Positions 47,977-55,217 of a stretch of DNA of 64,000 nucleotides are shown here, in pieces. The notes under the pieces are model-generated. The model was not told the DNA's origin, did no database searches, and was given only the letters and a program-made list of their open reading frames with translations. Position numbers and translations under genes: made by a program. Position 1 is the stretch's first letter. The number at the start of each line of letters is the position of its first letter. Origin of the DNA: Gordonia terrae (GTDB lineage: Bacteria > Actinomycetota > Actinomycetes > Mycobacteriales > Mycobacteriaceae); assembly GCF_001698225.1 (NCBI RefSeq), contig NZ_CP016594.1:3844001-3908000 (forward strand). Reading direction: 5' to 3'.

Positions 47977-48108
47977 CCGTCCGGGTATCCGGGACAGGCC
48001 GCGGAAGCCACCCCTCTGGCCAAGAGGACTGCGACACGGTATATTTCGTCAGGTGTTGACTTCCTCTGAACAAAGATTGGGGGTCCACGTCGTGCGCGGT
48101 GAGTGCTG

Positions 48109-49494
48109 ATGCGCCTCCCGCCCACGACTGGAATTCCTCCCCGCCTCTCCCCCTGGCTCCGCGCCCGTCAATTCGCGGTACCACCCTCCATGATCGACGC
48201 CGCCACCGCTGCGCGTCGTGCCGCCGACTGGATCGGCGCTTGCGCCGCAGCAGGTTTCGACGCCGACATCGATCTGGACGCCGTGCGCCGAAGGTGCGGC
48301 GCCGACCTGGCCGAACACCTTCAGGACGACCTCCTCCATCTCGCGCCCGACCTGCTGCGTTGGCATCTGCCGCGGATGGGCCCCGCCGGACACCTGCGCC
48401 CTGGCCTCACCATCGCGCTAGCCCGATATGGGCACGGTCCCGGAAACCGTTTCGGCACAGCAGGTTCGGTATACCTCGTAGCACGGACCGCACCGCGGTG
48501 GGCCGATGCCGGACAACGAGTGTCGCTGACCCTGTGGGACGGGTCGACGCCCGTCCCCCATCCACACCCCCGGCCGGACCGCAGATACCGGCTGGACCTG
48601 CATCGTCATCTGTGGGACGTCCGCCGCACCGCAGAACTCCGAATGCGTTGCGGTGCTTCCTCATCACCGTCACCGCCGACCCCGTCCCCGCCGCGTGACC
48701 CGCCCGACGGATGCGCCGTCGATCGATGGGCAGCCGAAGCCGCCTTGGTCCTCCGCGCCGACGGCCGTCGGTCAGGGTGCGTGCGGATACGGCTTGGAGC
48801 TGGTCGAGAACTGTTCCTGCACACCGACATCGATGATCTCGACGCCACCCGGTGGGTCGTCGACCCTCCTGCGGGAGGGATCACGGCTCTCCCGGTTCTT
48901 CCCGACGCCGCGACCAGGACGCTTCCGGATCTCGAACTGATCCGACACGGCGCGATCACACCCGGTCGGTTGCACCCGCTGGTGGCGGCCGCGCTCACGC
49001 CCGGGTGTGCCTCGGCACCTCGTGATCGAGAAGAGCTGGACGGAAACGGCTTTCAGAAGGTGCGATGTCGGGGCGAGCTACATCGCATCGGGATCGCCGA
49101 CGGAGTTCTCTCGGCCCTCGATCACGACCGCGACGAGATCCGCCGCGAGGAGATGCTGGCCTCACTCACGGGCACACCCCTGCCCTGCCTGCAGGCCATC
49201 GACCGCGCCCACCGGCGGCCCGATTGCCTCGCCGGAGTACGTGAACGACTCGACTTCGGCGACATCGACGGCGCACTGGCGATCGTGGAACGACTACTCG
49301 GCCCGGAGGCGACCCTGCGGAACGGGCCGCTGCGTGATGCGGTCGAGCGCACCCGCGCGCAACAGGAGATCTACGACGCGTATCGCGCCGGGGCGACAGA
49401 TCCTGTTCCGCAGCCGGTTCCGGGCGGGCCCCGCTGTCGTCACCACCGCGGTCGGCGTCGGCGCGCCCGTCCGCGCCACGCAACTCAACTCTGA
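48109..49494 (+). CDS. Uncharacterised 461-aa protein, first gene of MoxR-VWA cassette
   Basis: I do not recognise a known domain. The N-terminal third is helical (AARRAADWIGACAAAGFDA, LAEHLQDDLLHLAPDLLRWH); the middle, from SVYLVARTAPRWADAG, looks beta-rich with a Pro/Ser break near residue 185; GRELFLHTDIDDLDATRWVV continues that fold. The C-terminal part (RREEMLASLTGTPLPCLQAI, then LDFGDIDGALAIVERLLGP) is helical and the tail is basic. No signal peptide or membrane helix. It precedes the MoxR ATPase by 40 bp in the same direction and is probably its partner or substrate-recruiting subunit. ATG 48109 has GGTGAG upstream; GTG 48103 is possible. Confidence 0.7.
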   Translation: MRLPPTTGIPPRLSPWLRARQFAVPPSMIDAATAARRAADWIGACAAAGFDADIDLDAVRRRCGADLAEHLQDDLLHLAPDLLRWHLPRMGPAGHLRPGLTIALARYGHGPGNRFGTAGSVYLVARTAPRWADAGQRVSLTLWDGSTPVPHPHPRPDRRYRLDLHRHLWDVRRTAELRMRCGASSSPSPPTPSPPRDPPDGCAVDRWAAEAALVLRADGRRSGCVRIRLGAGRELFLHTDIDDLDATRWVVDPPAGGITALPVLPDAATRTLPDLELIRHGAITPGRLHPLVAAALTPGCASAPRDREELDGNGFQKVRCRGELHRIGIADGVLSALDHDRDEIRREEMLASLTGTPLPCLQAIDRAHRRPDCLAGVRERLDFGDIDGALAIVERLLGPEATLRNGPLRDAVERTRAQQEIYDAYRAGATDPVPQPVPGGPRCRHHRGRRRRARPRHATQL

Positions 49495-49534
49495 CGCCGA
49501 CAACACCCCCACTTCTCCCACCCCTAGGTGAATC

Positions 49535-50842
49535 ATGTCCACACACACCATGCCCACTGTCACCACAGCCACTGACATCACGGCCACCGACATCACGGCC
49601 ACCGCGGCCCATTCGACATACCTCGGCAGGGCCGAACTCGACAGGGCCGCCTCGCTCCTCGCGATGCTCGAGGAGACGACCACCGAACAGCGGACCCATG
49701 ACCAGCTCGAAGCGCTCACGCTCGCGGTGGCCGCCGACCTCCCGGTCCTGCTGTGGGGTGAACCGGGGATCGGCAAGACCGCGGCACTGACACAACTCGC
49801 CGAGTCCCTGGACCTGCCACTCACGACGGTGATAGCGAGCGTTCACGAGCCCTCGGACTTCTCCGGGCTACCCATCATCGGGGATGACCCGGCCACCCGG
49901 GGCGTTCCCATGGCACCCCCGGACTGGGCCGTTCGTCTCGCCGACGCCGGCCGCGGATTGCTCTTCCTCGACGAGCTCTCCACGGCACCTCCGGCAGTAC
50001 AGGCGGCGCTCCTGCGACTGGTGCTCGAGAGACGCGTAGGCGCTCTGCAATTGCCTCCCGATGTGCGGATCGTCGCCGCCGCCAACCCGCCGTCGTCGGC
50101 GGCGGACGGCTGGGAGCTGAGTGCACCGCTCGCCAACCGTTTCGTCCATCTGCACTGGACCCACGATCACGACGTCGTGGTCCGCGGCCTCGGCGGCACC
50201 TGGCCCACGACGGACCTGCCGACCCTGGACGCGGAGAAATTCCCCAGTGCAGTCGATTTCGCGCGCCGAGCCGTGTGCACGTTGCTGGCGGCGCGTCCCG
50301 CGCTGGTCCATCAGCTCCCCGGGAGCCAAACCCGTCGGGGCGGCGCCTGGCCCTCGCCGCGAAGTTGGGCCGCGACGGTGCGACTGATCGCGTTCGCCAC
50401 CGCCGCGTCGGCGTCATCCGACGTCCTGTCGTTGTTGGTCCGCGGCACGGTGGGCGACGGGCCCGGCTTCGAATTGCTGGCGAGTATCGATCACATGGAT
50501 CTGCCGGATCCCGAAACGCTGCTCGCCGATCCGTCAGCGGCGCAACTCCCCGAGCGAGGTGACCTGTGTCAGGCGACACTCGACGCCGTCGTCGCCGCGG
50601 TCCGGCGTCGACCCGATCGGACCCGGTGGGACGCCGCATGGGAGGTGCTGGCCGTCGCGGTCCAGACCGGCGCACCTGATCTCGTGGTGGTTCCGGCGAC
50701 CACCCTGGCGACGCTACGACGGGACGACTGGCAGATCCCCGCCACCATCGACCGACTGGCGGGGGTGGTGTCGGTGTCCCGCGCGGCCGATGAGGCCGCC
50801 GACCGGGTCGCCGCGCGCCCAGGACAGGACCGGATGCGATGA
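49535..50842 (+). CDS. MoxR-type AAA+ ATPase
   Basis: 435 aa. A Thr-rich disordered N-terminus (with a short repeat of TATDI) is followed by the AAA+ core: Walker A LLWGEPGIGKT (Lys81), Walker B GLLFLDELST (Asp146-Glu147), sensor 1 IVAAANPPSS and an arginine-finger region APLANRFVHLHW. MoxR proteins remodel or insert metals into partner proteins and almost always act with a VWA-domain partner, here the next gene, which it overlaps by ATGA. The C-terminal half is more divergent than in standard MoxR. Confidence 0.9.
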   Translation: MSTHTMPTVTTATDITATDITATAAHSTYLGRAELDRAASLLAMLEETTTEQRTHDQLEALTLAVAADLPVLLWGEPGIGKTAALTQLAESLDLPLTTVIASVHEPSDFSGLPIIGDDPATRGVPMAPPDWAVRLADAGRGLLFLDELSTAPPAVQAALLRLVLERRVGALQLPPDVRIVAAANPPSSAADGWELSAPLANRFVHLHWTHDHDVVVRGLGGTWPTTDLPTLDAEKFPSAVDFARRAVCTLLAARPALVHQLPGSQTRRGGAWPSPRSWAATVRLIAFATAASASSDVLSLLVRGTVGDGPGFELLASIDHMDLPDPETLLADPSAAQLPERGDLCQATLDAVVAAVRRRPDRTRWDAAWEVLAVAVQTGAPDLVVVPATTLATLRRDDWQIPATIDRLAGVVSVSRAADEAADRVAARPGQDRMR

Positions 50843-52260
50843 CGGTGACCGAAGCATTGGTGTCGACGCCATCGGTGTCGGTCTCGGACCGGATCTACGC
50901 TGCTCGCCTGCACGCGGTGCGCGCACGGCCGTACATGGCAACCGCGCTCTACGCCCTGCACCTCATCGAGTCGCCGCTCGTCCCGACCATGAGCGTCGAC
51001 CGCTATTGGCGGTGCTACCTGTCGCCGGCGTTCGTCGCGAGCCGACCCGAGGAAGAGATCGCCGCTCTCCTGGTGCACGAGGTGTCACATCTCCTCCGGG
51101 ATCACGCCGCCCGGTCCGACCGGTACGCCGAGGATCACGGCTTCGACAGCCCGGCCGAACGGTTGCGGATGAACATCGCCGCCGACTTCGAGATCAATGA
51201 CGACGTGTACGGGTCCGGGCTCGTCACGCCCGACGACGCAGTGCACCCGTCCGCACTCGACCTGGACACCGGATTGCTGATGGAGGACTACCTCCGCTGG
51301 TTCAGTCTGGGTCCACGGACCGAGGCGATGGCCTGGCTCGAATGCGGTAGCGGAGGCGACGGCCGACATCGCGAGTGGGAACGGGGGCCGGAGGACGCCG
51401 ATGGTCTGAGCGGCCAGGAGCGCGACGCCGTCCGATTCGCGGTCGCGACGGCGATCTCCGACCGCGCAGGCGATGTCCCGGCCGGCTGGCGGCGGTGGGC
51501 GCACGACGCCGTGCACCCGCCGCAGCCATGGCAGGCCCTGTTGGGCGCCGCGATCCGGGCCGCCGTGTCGACCTCCGGCGTCGGCGACGACTACACCTTC
51601 GGGCGGCCGGCGAGGCGGTCGGTCGCGCTGCCCGGTGTGATCGTGCCCAGTCTTCGACGGACCCCGCCGAAGGTGAGTGTCGTGATCGACACCTCGGGAT
51701 CGGTCAGCGACGCCGAACTCGGCAGCGCGCTGCTCGAGGTCGCCGCGATCGCACGTGCCCTCAGCGGCCGACGCGATCTGCTCACCGTGGTGTCGTGCGA
51801 CGCCGCGGCGCATGTCGCACAACCCATCTGCCGTGCGGAGAGCATCCCGCTACACGGCGGCGGCGGGACCGACCTGCGTACCGGGTTCGACGCCGCCCTG
51901 CGTACCCGACCCGACGTTGTCGTCGCACTGACCGACGGACACACTCCGTGGCCGAGTCACCGGCCCGCCTGCCGCACCATCGTCGGGCTCTTCGCTCGCG
52001 AGTATCGCGCGTATGCCCCGCTCAACGCTCACCCGTGGCCGCATACTCCGGTGGCACCTATTCCGGCGGTGGGTCGGCGCCACCCGACTGGGCGCAGGTC
52101 GTTCGCATCGGCGAGCCGGGCCGGTGAGCGCCTCGAAGGGTCCTCACCACCCACACCACGACCCGCCGCGCCTCGATTTCCGTCCACCTCAGCAGGGTCG
52201 AAGGGCATATTCGGGCTGTCGGGATTTGTTGGCCACGATTCACGGGTGTCGGACCTCTAA
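50839..52260 (+). CDS. VWA-like protein with HExxH metallopeptidase-like N-terminus (DUF2201), probable C-terminal frameshift
   Basis: Open frame of 473 codons. The N-terminal DUF2201-type domain has LLVHEVSHLLRDHA (His80, Glu81, His84) and the later acidic segment MNIAADFEINDD, a zinc metallopeptidase-like arrangement. The C-terminal VWA domain has the MIDAS motif VVIDTSGSVSD (Asp284), GGGTDLRTGFDAAL and VVVALTDGHTPWP. After about residue 390 this frame turns into Pro/Arg-rich sequence, while the family-like ending APPDWAQVVRIGEPGR lies in another frame and stops at 52127. So the native gene probably ended at 52127 and has suffered an indel near 52000-52030. The present frame runs into an IS element. 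Confidence 0.82.
   Translation: MTVTEALVSTPSVSVSDRIYAARLHAVRARPYMATALYALHLIESPLVPTMSVDRYWRCYLSPAFVASRPEEEIAALLVHEVSHLLRDHAARSDRYAEDHGFDSPAERLRMNIAADFEINDDVYGSGLVTPDDAVHPSALDLDTGLLMEDYLRWFSLGPRTEAMAWLECGSGGDGRHREWERGPEDADGLSGQERDAVRFAVATAISDRAGDVPAGWRRWAHDAVHPPQPWQALLGAAIRAAVSTSGVGDDYTFGRPARRSVALPGVIVPSLRRTPPKVSVVIDTSGSVSDAELGSALLEVAAIARALSGRRDLLTVVSCDAAAHVAQPICRAESIPLHGGGGTDLRTGFDAALRTRPDVVVALTDGHTPWPSHRPACRTIVGLFAREYRAYAPLNAHPWPHTPVAPIPAVGRRHPTGRRSFASASRAGERLEGSSPPTPRPAAPRFPSTSAGSKGIFGLSGFVGHDSRVSDL
52208..52211. repeat. Left copy of IS target duplication (TATT)
   Basis: TATT directly precedes the left inverted repeat and is repeated at 54142-54145 directly after the right one, as expected for a 4-bp target-site duplication made on insertion. 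Confidence 0.85.
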
Positions 52261-54141
52261 ATCGGGCTTTGAACTGCGATGATGTGTGGATGGCGAAGGA
52301 TTATCGGCCGGTTGATCGTGACCAGGTATTCCTGCTTCCTCCGGATATGCGGGACTGGGTCGGCCGCGATGACCCGGTATGGCTGGTGATCGCCACGGTG
52401 CAACGGATGAACACCGCCTCCGTGCACAAGCTGCGCAAGACCGGCGGTGTCGGGCGGCGTGGCTATGACCCGGACATGTTGTTGACCTTGCTGATTTGGG
52501 CGTGGGCTCATGGGCAACGGTCCTCGCGGCAGATCGAGCGTTTGTGCCATCGGGACCTGACCTACCGGGTCATCTGCGCTGGCGATGTCCCCGATCACTC
52601 CACGATCGCCCAGTTCCGCAAAGATGCCTCGGCGGTGATGGCTGATTTGTTCGCTGAGTCGTTGACGGTGTGCGCGCAGCTAGGGATGGGCCAGTTGGGT
52701 GTCGTCGCTCTTGATGGAGTCAAGATCGCCTCGAATGCCTCGCAGTCGGCCAACCGCACAGAGAAGCATCTGGTCAAAGAACGTCAGGCAGAGGCTCAAC
52801 AGCTCCGCAGCAAGCTCAAAGACGTTGGTGCACAGTCGGATGCCGAACATGCCGCCAACGATGACGATGGCGATGGCGATGGCGGTGACGAGATCCCGCC
52901 GGGTCTCATCAATGCTCCCGGCGCTGAACGGCTCGCCCGAATCGACGCTGCGTTGGCTTCGGCTCGCGAGCACAACCAGGCAGCGCGAGACGCCAAGCCG
53001 ACCCAGACGCGCGCAGAGATCAACCGTGATCACACGGTTCGGCGCCGCGCGGCCGAAGACGCCAAAGCCCAGCAGTGGGTGGTGGCCTACACCGCCCATC
53101 TCGCCGGTGACGGCGACTATCCAGGGGCGCCGCCGATGGCGGCGCAGCTTCAGGCCGCTGTGCTGCGGTTGAGCAAAGCACGTGCTGATCAGCAGACCAA
53201 GATCGATGCGTGGGAACGCAAACCGCGTAAACGTAGGCCGCCGAGCGCAGTTGATGACCACAGCTCAGTTCGACAAGCGCGCACACGTGTTAAGCGGGCC
53301 GAGGTCCTGGACGCGCAGCTGCGTGCCCGGCGTGTGGCCGAGGACGAAACCTACGCCGCCGCGATCGTGGCCGCCCGCAACCACACTCGCACACCACATC
53401 GGGCCAATACCGACACCCGCCGCAACATCACCGACCCGCAGTCCCGGGCCCTGTCGTTGCGTGGTGGTGGCTGGATCCAGGGATACAACTGTCAAGCCGT
53501 CACCAGCAGCGACGGCTTGATCATCGCGACCATGGTCACCAACGGGGCCATCGATACCCCACACTTCGTACCGATGATGAACAAGGCCGTCGCCGCCGCT
53601 GAACACATTCAGTCCCACCAGCACCCACCACCGGACACGCCGGGAATCGGGCTCTTGCTCGCCGATGCCGGCTACCACTCTGAAGCCAACATCACCGCCG
53701 CTGGACCCGACCGGCTCATCGCTTCGACCAAAACCCACAAACTTCGCGTGGCGCGCGCCGAACACTCCACCACCGAAACCACGGCATCCTCACCGGCCCA
53801 ATCAGATACCGTCGCCACCCCGATCGAGGCAATGGCAACCCGATTGCTCACCGAAGAAGGCCACGCCGCCTACAACAGACGCAGCCACATCGCGGAAACA
53901 CCGTTCGGGTGGGCTAAACACACCCTCGGTTTCCGTCGATTCACCGGCCGCGGACTCGCACGAGCAAACGCCGAGTTCACCTTCCACGCCATGGTCAACA
54001 ACATCTGCAAAGCCCTCACCGCCGGCCACCTCGCCACAACCTGACCCGTCACGGGGGCCACACCCCCTCACAGCCCAGAGCTCTCGTGATCCCCGGAGAC
54101 CACCGGGAAGACCACCGGGAACTTCAAATCCCGACAGCCCG
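52212..54141 (+). mobile_element. Complete IS1182-family insertion sequence (1930 bp)
   Basis: Bounded by perfect 17-bp inverted repeats CGGGCTGTCGGGATTTG (52212-52228, and reverse complement 54125-54141) and flanked by TATT duplications. It carries one full-length transposase. Removing the element and one TATT restores AGGGCA-TAT-TGCCCT, a 6-bp-stem hairpin, so the target was a palindrome, probably the terminator of the MoxR-VWA cassette. An intact transposase, perfect repeats and intact duplication suggest a recent, possibly active insertion. Confidence 0.92.
52290..54044 (+). CDS. IS1182 family transposase
   Basis: 584 aa DDE transposase. The N-terminal DNA-binding domain runs from MAKDYRPVDRDQVFLLPPDM through the IS1182-typical YDPDMLLTLLIWAWAHGQRS and VPDHSTIAQFRKDASAV. 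The catalytic core has VVALDGVKIASNASQSANRT, then GIGLLLADAGYHSE, and the conserved end NRRSHIAETPFGWAKHTLGF. An insertion of charged low-complexity sequence (Asp/Gly run near residue 195) separates the first and second catalytic regions, as in many family members. The ATG at 52290 fits the family start; an in-frame ATG at 52269 would add seven residues. Confidence 0.94.
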   Translation: MAKDYRPVDRDQVFLLPPDMRDWVGRDDPVWLVIATVQRMNTASVHKLRKTGGVGRRGYDPDMLLTLLIWAWAHGQRSSRQIERLCHRDLTYRVICAGDVPDHSTIAQFRKDASAVMADLFAESLTVCAQLGMGQLGVVALDGVKIASNASQSANRTEKHLVKERQAEAQQLRSKLKDVGAQSDAEHAANDDDGDGDGGDEIPPGLINAPGAERLARIDAALASAREHNQAARDAKPTQTRAEINRDHTVRRRAAEDAKAQQWVVAYTAHLAGDGDYPGAPPMAAQLQAAVLRLSKARADQQTKIDAWERKPRKRRPPSAVDDHSSVRQARTRVKRAEVLDAQLRARRVAEDETYAAAIVAARNHTRTPHRANTDTRRNITDPQSRALSLRGGGWIQGYNCQAVTSSDGLIIATMVTNGAIDTPHFVPMMNKAVAAAEHIQSHQHPPPDTPGIGLLLADAGYHSEANITAAGPDRLIASTKTHKLRVARAEHSTTETTASSPAQSDTVATPIEAMATRLLTEEGHAAYNRRSHIAETPFGWAKHTLGFRRFTGRGLARANAEFTFHAMVNNICKALTAGHLATT

Positions 54142-54145
54142 TATT
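54125..54145. repeat. Right inverted repeat and target duplication of the IS
   Basis: 54125-54141 is the exact reverse complement of the left 17-bp end; 54142-54145 is the second TATT. The following GCCCT completes the interrupted hairpin stem begun by AGGGC at 52202. Confidence 0.88.
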
Positions 54146-54310
54146 GCCCTCGGAGGACGCTCACGAGGACGTGAAATTCCCGAACCACCGACCGATCCGC
54201 CGCGTCCCGGTCGAATGGTCATCCGCGTCGAGCACCGCCCGACGAAACGCGGGGCCGAACGATCCGGTAGATCTGGGGTGCGGCCAGTCGCAGGGAAGGT
54301 GACGCAACCG

Positions 54311-55168: not shown

Positions 55169-55217
55169 GCGGGGCATTCCGGCCGGTTCCGCCGGTGGGC
55201 CGACTACTCTGGCCGCC

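Follow-up and report, generated by a model that had tools for sequence, protein, structure and literature searches.

Our analysis of a 64,000-nucleotide stretch of Gordonia terrae DNA (contig NZ_CP016594.1, positions 3,844,001 to 3,908,000; referred to here as the window) centers on a cassette of three genes, A, B, and C, which encode a protein of three parts, a MoxR-like AAA+ ATPase, and a VWA protein with an HExxH domain. Protein A contains a module of about 45 residues with the spacing C-x4-H-x13-H-x20-C, hereafter the CHHC module, which recurs in the third gene of more remote DUF2201 systems and is newly recognized here, while the pair of MoxR ATPase and metallopeptidase–VWA protein was already known from phages. 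We propose, giving the idea about an even chance on the basis of sequence comparison, that B and C form a MoxR–VWA remodeling machine that would handle metal rather than cleave protein and would act on CHHC-tagged partners. A preceding sequence-only reading had left the client of this machine open; the best candidate for a partner or client is now A, by way of a module that recurs both near the machine and far from it, and a client role would fit that recurrence. No description of the trio or the module was found in the literature searched, which did not extend to supplements, and papers that mention DUF2201 (e.g., PMC5735904) are, judging by their titles, not about the trio.

The module lies between an N-terminal domain of about 300 residues without a recognized fold and a short helical C-terminus. 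Protein A, whose start codon is uncertain (an in-frame GTG stands at 48103), matched nothing in Pfam, NCBIfam, or PADLOC at E values up to 1 and nothing in PHROGs up to 0.01, in keeping with the earlier statement that the first gene lacks a recognized domain; a match to a housekeeping family, entertained at that point, did not appear in these four libraries. Homologs are numerous: of 8000 proteins scored, 2814 reach E ≤ 0.001. Among the best 120 matches the named sources are Gordonia, Nocardia, Rhodococcus, Prescottella, Aldersonia, Streptomyces, and Kitasatospora, with full-length identities of 55–62% between genera. The residues invariant in a 122-row alignment of A include C320, H325, H339, and C360, and a 14-row alignment of modules retains the same C, H, H, and C together with L, L, G, and G. 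Structure models of the module predict a beta-hairpin followed by helices, a fold that would suit a zinc site, and the module is probably metal-binding.

The proteins that share this core differ in what surrounds it. They include the 461-residue A itself, an ankyrin-tailed A, a 171-residue protein with little besides the module (the third gene in G114), and proteins ending in DUF2087. In Streptomyces paralogs of A, ankyrin repeats follow the module, and the C-terminus of A aligns to this ankyrin-repeat part. Three further loci (L044, L051, and L180) combine the same module with different third proteins, which are encoded downstream of C in L051, as also in L112–L114, and divergently from C in L044 and L180. 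Of ten module proteins scanned, two end in DUF2087, and an enzymatic Pfam domain over cut-off was found in none.

Gene A keeps close company with the other two genes. In a sample of 118 genomes from the class, A occurs in 11 and DUF2201_N in 16, with all 11 falling within the 16 (Fisher 4.6e-12, genomes treated as independent), and in every one of the 11 A precedes C's domain by 1.3–2.0 kb, co-directional with it and with B in between; a trio falling apart in other genomes, which would have spoken against the sequence-only reading, was not what we saw. Across 246 genomes of the phylum, strong module matches (best E ≤ 6e-12) are present in 12, all 12 with DUF2201_N, which is found in 7 of the remaining 234 (Fisher 6.5e-16). 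Five weak matches in genomes without DUF2201_N (E 0.006–0.009) were set aside, two of them being only partially matched and three not matched by a 26-seed profile; counting them as module genomes gives a Fisher value of 3.5e-12. DUF2201_N itself is found in 8% (19/246) to 14% (16/118) of the actinobacterial genomes sampled. When stretches from the order were chosen by C alone, a module was nearby in 12 of 20, the 20 being what was left of 27 genomes with a C match once the host genome of the window and G089 had been omitted together with five whose match was short or partial. This figure is less circular than the 32/46 obtained otherwise, which is partly so because most of the 26 rows of the module profile come from loci picked for A or for the module.

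A different line of evidence comes from three distant actinobacteria (G310, G181, and G195), each with a single DUF2201_N match and a B gene beside that C. At E ≤ 0.01 their module matches number 10 in G195, 6 in G181, and 2 in G310, and at E ≤ 0.001 there are 9 in G195 and 7 in G181. One module gene lies immediately downstream of C in G195 and G310, and three do so in tandem in G181, the others being located elsewhere: 12 dispersed stretches (L115–L126) carry 14 modules, and neither B nor C was detected in any of them by tblastn at 1e-5, a result also obtained with rough gene calls, which miss some B genes. Module and DUF2201_N are both missing from a sister genome, G209, the third analyzed for that order. 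The presence of one DUF2201_N protein alongside many dispersed module proteins, and the joint absence of both from G209, suggests that the B–C machine recognizes the module. A short module of this kind would point straight at candidate partners or clients, unlinked ones included, so that the clientele of a single machine becomes listable and testable. A search confined to the module end of G195's C-adjacent protein returned 3 proteins among the 60 candidates it covered.

Several observations weigh against so direct a link between module and machine. The module is not recognizable in 8 of the 20 C-selected stretches; three of the eight (L152, L175, and L176) stop short at a contig end. Nor does a second DUF2201 family (L045, L046, L047, L049, and L054) have a CHHC module nearby, so the B–C pair can occur without it. 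Among 15 C-termini compared, most share a diverged domain also found in L044, L051, and L180, and the module proteins may perhaps represent an expanded paralog family rather than many unlike clients. The multi-copy pattern derives from three fragmented assemblies and its negative control from one genome, and a convincing solved structure was found neither for A nor for the isolated module piece. Co-occurrence, moreover, would fit A as a regulator or adaptor equally well.

What, then, is the machine? By sequence, B is a MoxR-like AAA+ ATPase of the AAA_3/AAA_5 type (AAA_5, 36.7 bits against a cut-off of 22; AAA_3, 30.4 bits against 27), with the Walker A motif GEPGIGKT and the Walker B motif LLFLDE, and we leave its MoxR subfamily unassigned; solved sequences that match it include Midasin, PspF, further NtrC-type regulators, and NorQ. 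C matches DUF2201_N, a "putative metallopeptidase" (PF13203, 1.1e-27), followed by the VWA-like DUF2201 (PF09967, 1.4e-15), both over cut-off, and carries the metal ion–dependent adhesion site (MIDAS) ligand motifs DTSGS, GGGGTD, and LTDG, the first of a type also present in relatives. The sequence thus supports both the MoxR–VWA chaperone machine and the HExxH-bearing VWA partner, here with HEVSH, that had been described from the window. All three genes are under purifying selection: compared with either G. lacunae or G039, the window's copies give dN/dS values of 0.15–0.25 (for C, over the first 390 codons).

Is C a protease? An active zinc peptidase would be expected to conserve the glutamate of its HExxH motif across the family, and it is here that the family departs from expectation. 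All three histidines of HxxxHxxxxH are retained in 47 of 47 aligned C proteins (L181, whose row misses the site, was dropped, and L014, from the same genome as L061, was omitted), but the glutamate is present in only 35, being replaced by Leu, Gln, His, or Ala in the other 12. On the C tree its gain or loss takes 5 state changes, at least 3 of them forced by starred, well-supported branches. Two Gordonia genomes, G039 (L060) and G047 (L061), have HLVSH where the window and G. lacunae have HEVSH, and over 399 residues the G039 protein shares 88% identity with C of the window. Pattern reading of the second DUF2201 family had given HAVxH, from the wrong stretch; its proteins, with a C of about 600 residues and a MoxR of 353–407 residues as called, align with HEMLH, and their five rows were counted as glutamate-bearing.

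A regulated protease, in which A or other module proteins are unfolded by B for cleavage by the HExxH domain of C, would find a natural place for the glutamate and third histidine of the window's own C, for the 35 proteins that keep the glutamate, and for the phage relatives, four of which (L127, L128, L129, and L132) among the six read keep HExxH, the remaining two being left unresolved by the script; for a jumbo-phage pair, Iyer et al. likewise suggested that structural proteins are processed by peptidolysis (PMC7824862). It is nonetheless hard to reconcile with the repeated disappearance of the glutamate, down to two strains of the same genus, from a site whose histidines are never lost, or with the CHHC module being kept in 8 of the 12 loci whose C lacks it. 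Because of this asymmetry, proteolysis is unlikely as the conserved function of C, and metal handling or a structural role is favored, although individual members may still cleave; the Zn-dependent protease suggested earlier is to be corrected to that extent, and we judge the protease reading as a whole unlikely. That the catalytic glutamate is repeatedly missing while the metal ligands are kept also argues that the "putative metallopeptidase" label of DUF2201_N misleads for part of the family.

How does the cassette relate to known systems? Clients are unknown for many MoxR–VWA pairs. RavA–ViaA resembles the cassette as a MoxR–VWA pair and is not known to have an HExxH domain or a module protein. 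NorQ–NorD likewise joins a MoxR ATPase to a VWA partner with a MIDAS, with the VWA finger in the NorQ pore and the NorD linker remodeled for metal insertion (PMC13036017); in contrast to it, the cassette has no client enzyme beside its genes, and C has an HExxH domain. The MoxR–vWA ternary conflict systems, with their VMAP, iSTAND, FtsH, and beta-propeller variants (Kaur et al. 2020, PMC7159879), share with the cassette the combination of a MoxR, a VWA, and a third conserved protein. Unlike those described in the available part of that paper, the VWA here is a DUF2201 fused to an HExxH domain and A is without a Pfam match; metallopeptidases appear there only as rare effectors and in linked peptide-processing systems, and the word "ankyrin" is absent from the text. 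The VMAP type requires a third protein with the VMAP-C domain; Pfam, which may or may not contain a VMAP-C model, gave A no match at E values up to 1. The cassette does not qualify as the beta-propeller type, with the bpMoxR model below threshold on B (18.2 bits against a cut-off of 27) and no propeller on C.

Related pairs occur in viruses. A MoxR paired with a vWA protein bearing an N-terminal metallopeptidase is described for group 2.2 jumbo phages (PMC7824862), and this pair and a similar one in N4-like phages are of the same kind as B and C. By tblastn, C matches 117 phage records; in the record of EcP1, the two genes are labeled "similar to gp24" and "similar to gp25" of N4, and B is matched by PHROG 1297 and C by PHROG 1314. 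The phage pairs differ from the cassette in that A is found in none of 50,697 phage records and the module in none of the six stretches L127–L132. PHROG 1314 is labeled "HNH endonuclease", and several phage records give that or "homing endonuclease" where C matches; as C-like proteins there show HExxH, the name seems to be an annotation error, provided that the phage loci read belong to PHROG 1314.

Gene order, co-occurrence, residue invariance, the distribution of the module over different proteins, and the inconstant glutamate are all directly observed; starting from these, we propose the following model for the remodeling machine. C would dock on the CHHC module of its client or close to it, using the MIDAS and/or the HExxH-like domain. 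B would then hydrolyze ATP and, like NorQ with NorD, exert a pull on C by way of the latter's VWA domain and C-terminal tail. As a consequence, the module would be remodeled, or its metal loaded or exchanged, switching the attached domain on or off. Physical contact, the identity of the metal, ATP-driven remodeling, the client role, and the output of A are all presumed in this scheme. We further speculate, tentatively and well short of an even chance, that CHHC is a dedicated client tag by which one machine per cell metal-loads or switches scattered tagged proteins, with C as a metal-transfer chaperone that has repeatedly gone without its glutamate.

The patchy presence of the cassette invites another interpretation, compatible with the remodeling machine, in which A senses an invader, B and C set the threshold, and the N-terminal domain of A is the effector of a conflict or anti-phage system. 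The cassette is accessory in Gordonia, with A in 4 of 59 genomes including the window's own, all at one site, and G015 (L213) has a clean empty site where the alignment to the window stops at 47982 and restarts at 55182, without the trio, an insertion element, or an HTH_67 gene and with otherwise collinear flanks; in G039, the trio is present and HTH_67 is missing at the cassette site. Nine of 72,556 plasmid records, from Streptomyces and Embleya, carry A, and in two annotated plasmid stretches A, a "MoxR family ATPase", and a "VWA-like domain-containing protein" are consecutive. Ankyrin and leucine-rich-repeat partners (L042 and L174) and the existence of the ternary conflict systems (PMC7159879) would fit as well. 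In PADLOC-DB 2.0.0, B has weak, partial matches to models of the antiphage ATPase IetA (4.1e-06), yet these, like those to RtcR (3.7e-08) and PDC-M54A, cover the ATPase core only, and C, like A, has no match at E up to 1. A is not hypervariable, given its identities between genera, and around 27 loci no defense gene family was seen to recur among the 14 largest neighbor clusters, which, as built on a rough gene caller, reflect Gordonia synteny apart from one loose ABC-F cluster found in 8 loci and two that arose where the trio itself was called on the wrong strand. We regard a conflict system as improbable. Apart from the Gordonia synteny and the ABC-F cluster, no enzyme family was seen to recur there either, which bears out the earlier remark that no metabolic target gene stands beside the cassette and counts against a classic metal-insertion chaperone whose enzyme is encoded elsewhere and for which A would be an adaptor, not a client. 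Such a chaperone would have a precedent in NorQD, which inserts FeB into NOR (PMC13036017), and would make sense of a three-histidine site present in all 47 aligned C proteins, but the ten module proteins scanned offer no enzymatic domain over cut-off, and we hold this explanation to be quite doubtful. The four degrees of confidence attached to these readings are not mutually exclusive. The features on which the argument is built are collected in the table.

Table. Features of the cassette in the window and of related loci (positions in the window, or in the locus named)
Feature	Position	Strand	Description
Gene A	48109..49494	+	461 aa; three-part protein (N-terminal domain, CHHC module, helical C-terminus)
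CHHC module of A	49060..49194	+	Residues ~318–362; C320, H325, H339, C360
Gene B	49535..50842	+	435 aa; MoxR-like AAA+ ATPase
Gene C, own frame	50839..52260	+	473 aa; DUF2201_N (HExxH) and DUF2201 VWA
Three-His site of C	51076..51105	+	H80-E81-V-S-H84-LLRD-H89
MIDAS DxSxS motif of C's VWA domain	51688..51702	+	DTSGS
C-terminal tail of C, PPxWAxVVxI type	52080..52127	+	Conserved; frame differs from rest of C
171-aa CHHC-module protein	L055 9148-9663		In A's position, beside typical B–C pair
Four-gene variant	L042 7144-10184; L174 6102-8893		Leucine-rich-repeat protein, ankyrin-tailed A, MoxR, HExxH–VWA
Three module-bearing genes in tandem	L113 6953-8664		Immediately downstream of C in G181

The host genome is a single contig of 5.70 Mb whose closest named relatives are Gordonia, e.g., G. 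lacunae. The three genes are laid out as had been reported, co-directional, with 40 bp between A and B and an ATGA overlap between B and C, which starts at 50839; the end of the cassette, previously placed at 52127, has to be moved, this being the stop of an alternative frame that encodes the tail held in frame by G. lacunae and other relatives. Somewhere in its last ~30 codons C falls out of the frame that its relatives keep, leaving the VWA core and MIDAS ahead of the break; consistent with the damaged tail, the VWA match ends at profile position 105 of 123. A tail of the PPxWAxVVxI type, which a script pattern picks out in 36 of 48 C sequences, is missing from the window's C frame; either a mutation or a sequencing error in the assembly could be the cause, and intact copies of C are present in relatives. 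The damage may matter, since NorD, the VWA protein of NorQD, touches the ATPase NorQ with its C-terminus (PMC13036017), and the B–C machine may consequently be impaired in the window's strain.

Immediately downstream of C, at about 52180–54152 of the window, lies an insertion element with a DDE transposase, into whose left end the out-of-frame end of C extends. Two further copies in the same genome (L210 and L211) align at 99.3–99.4%, a likeness that marks the element as young.

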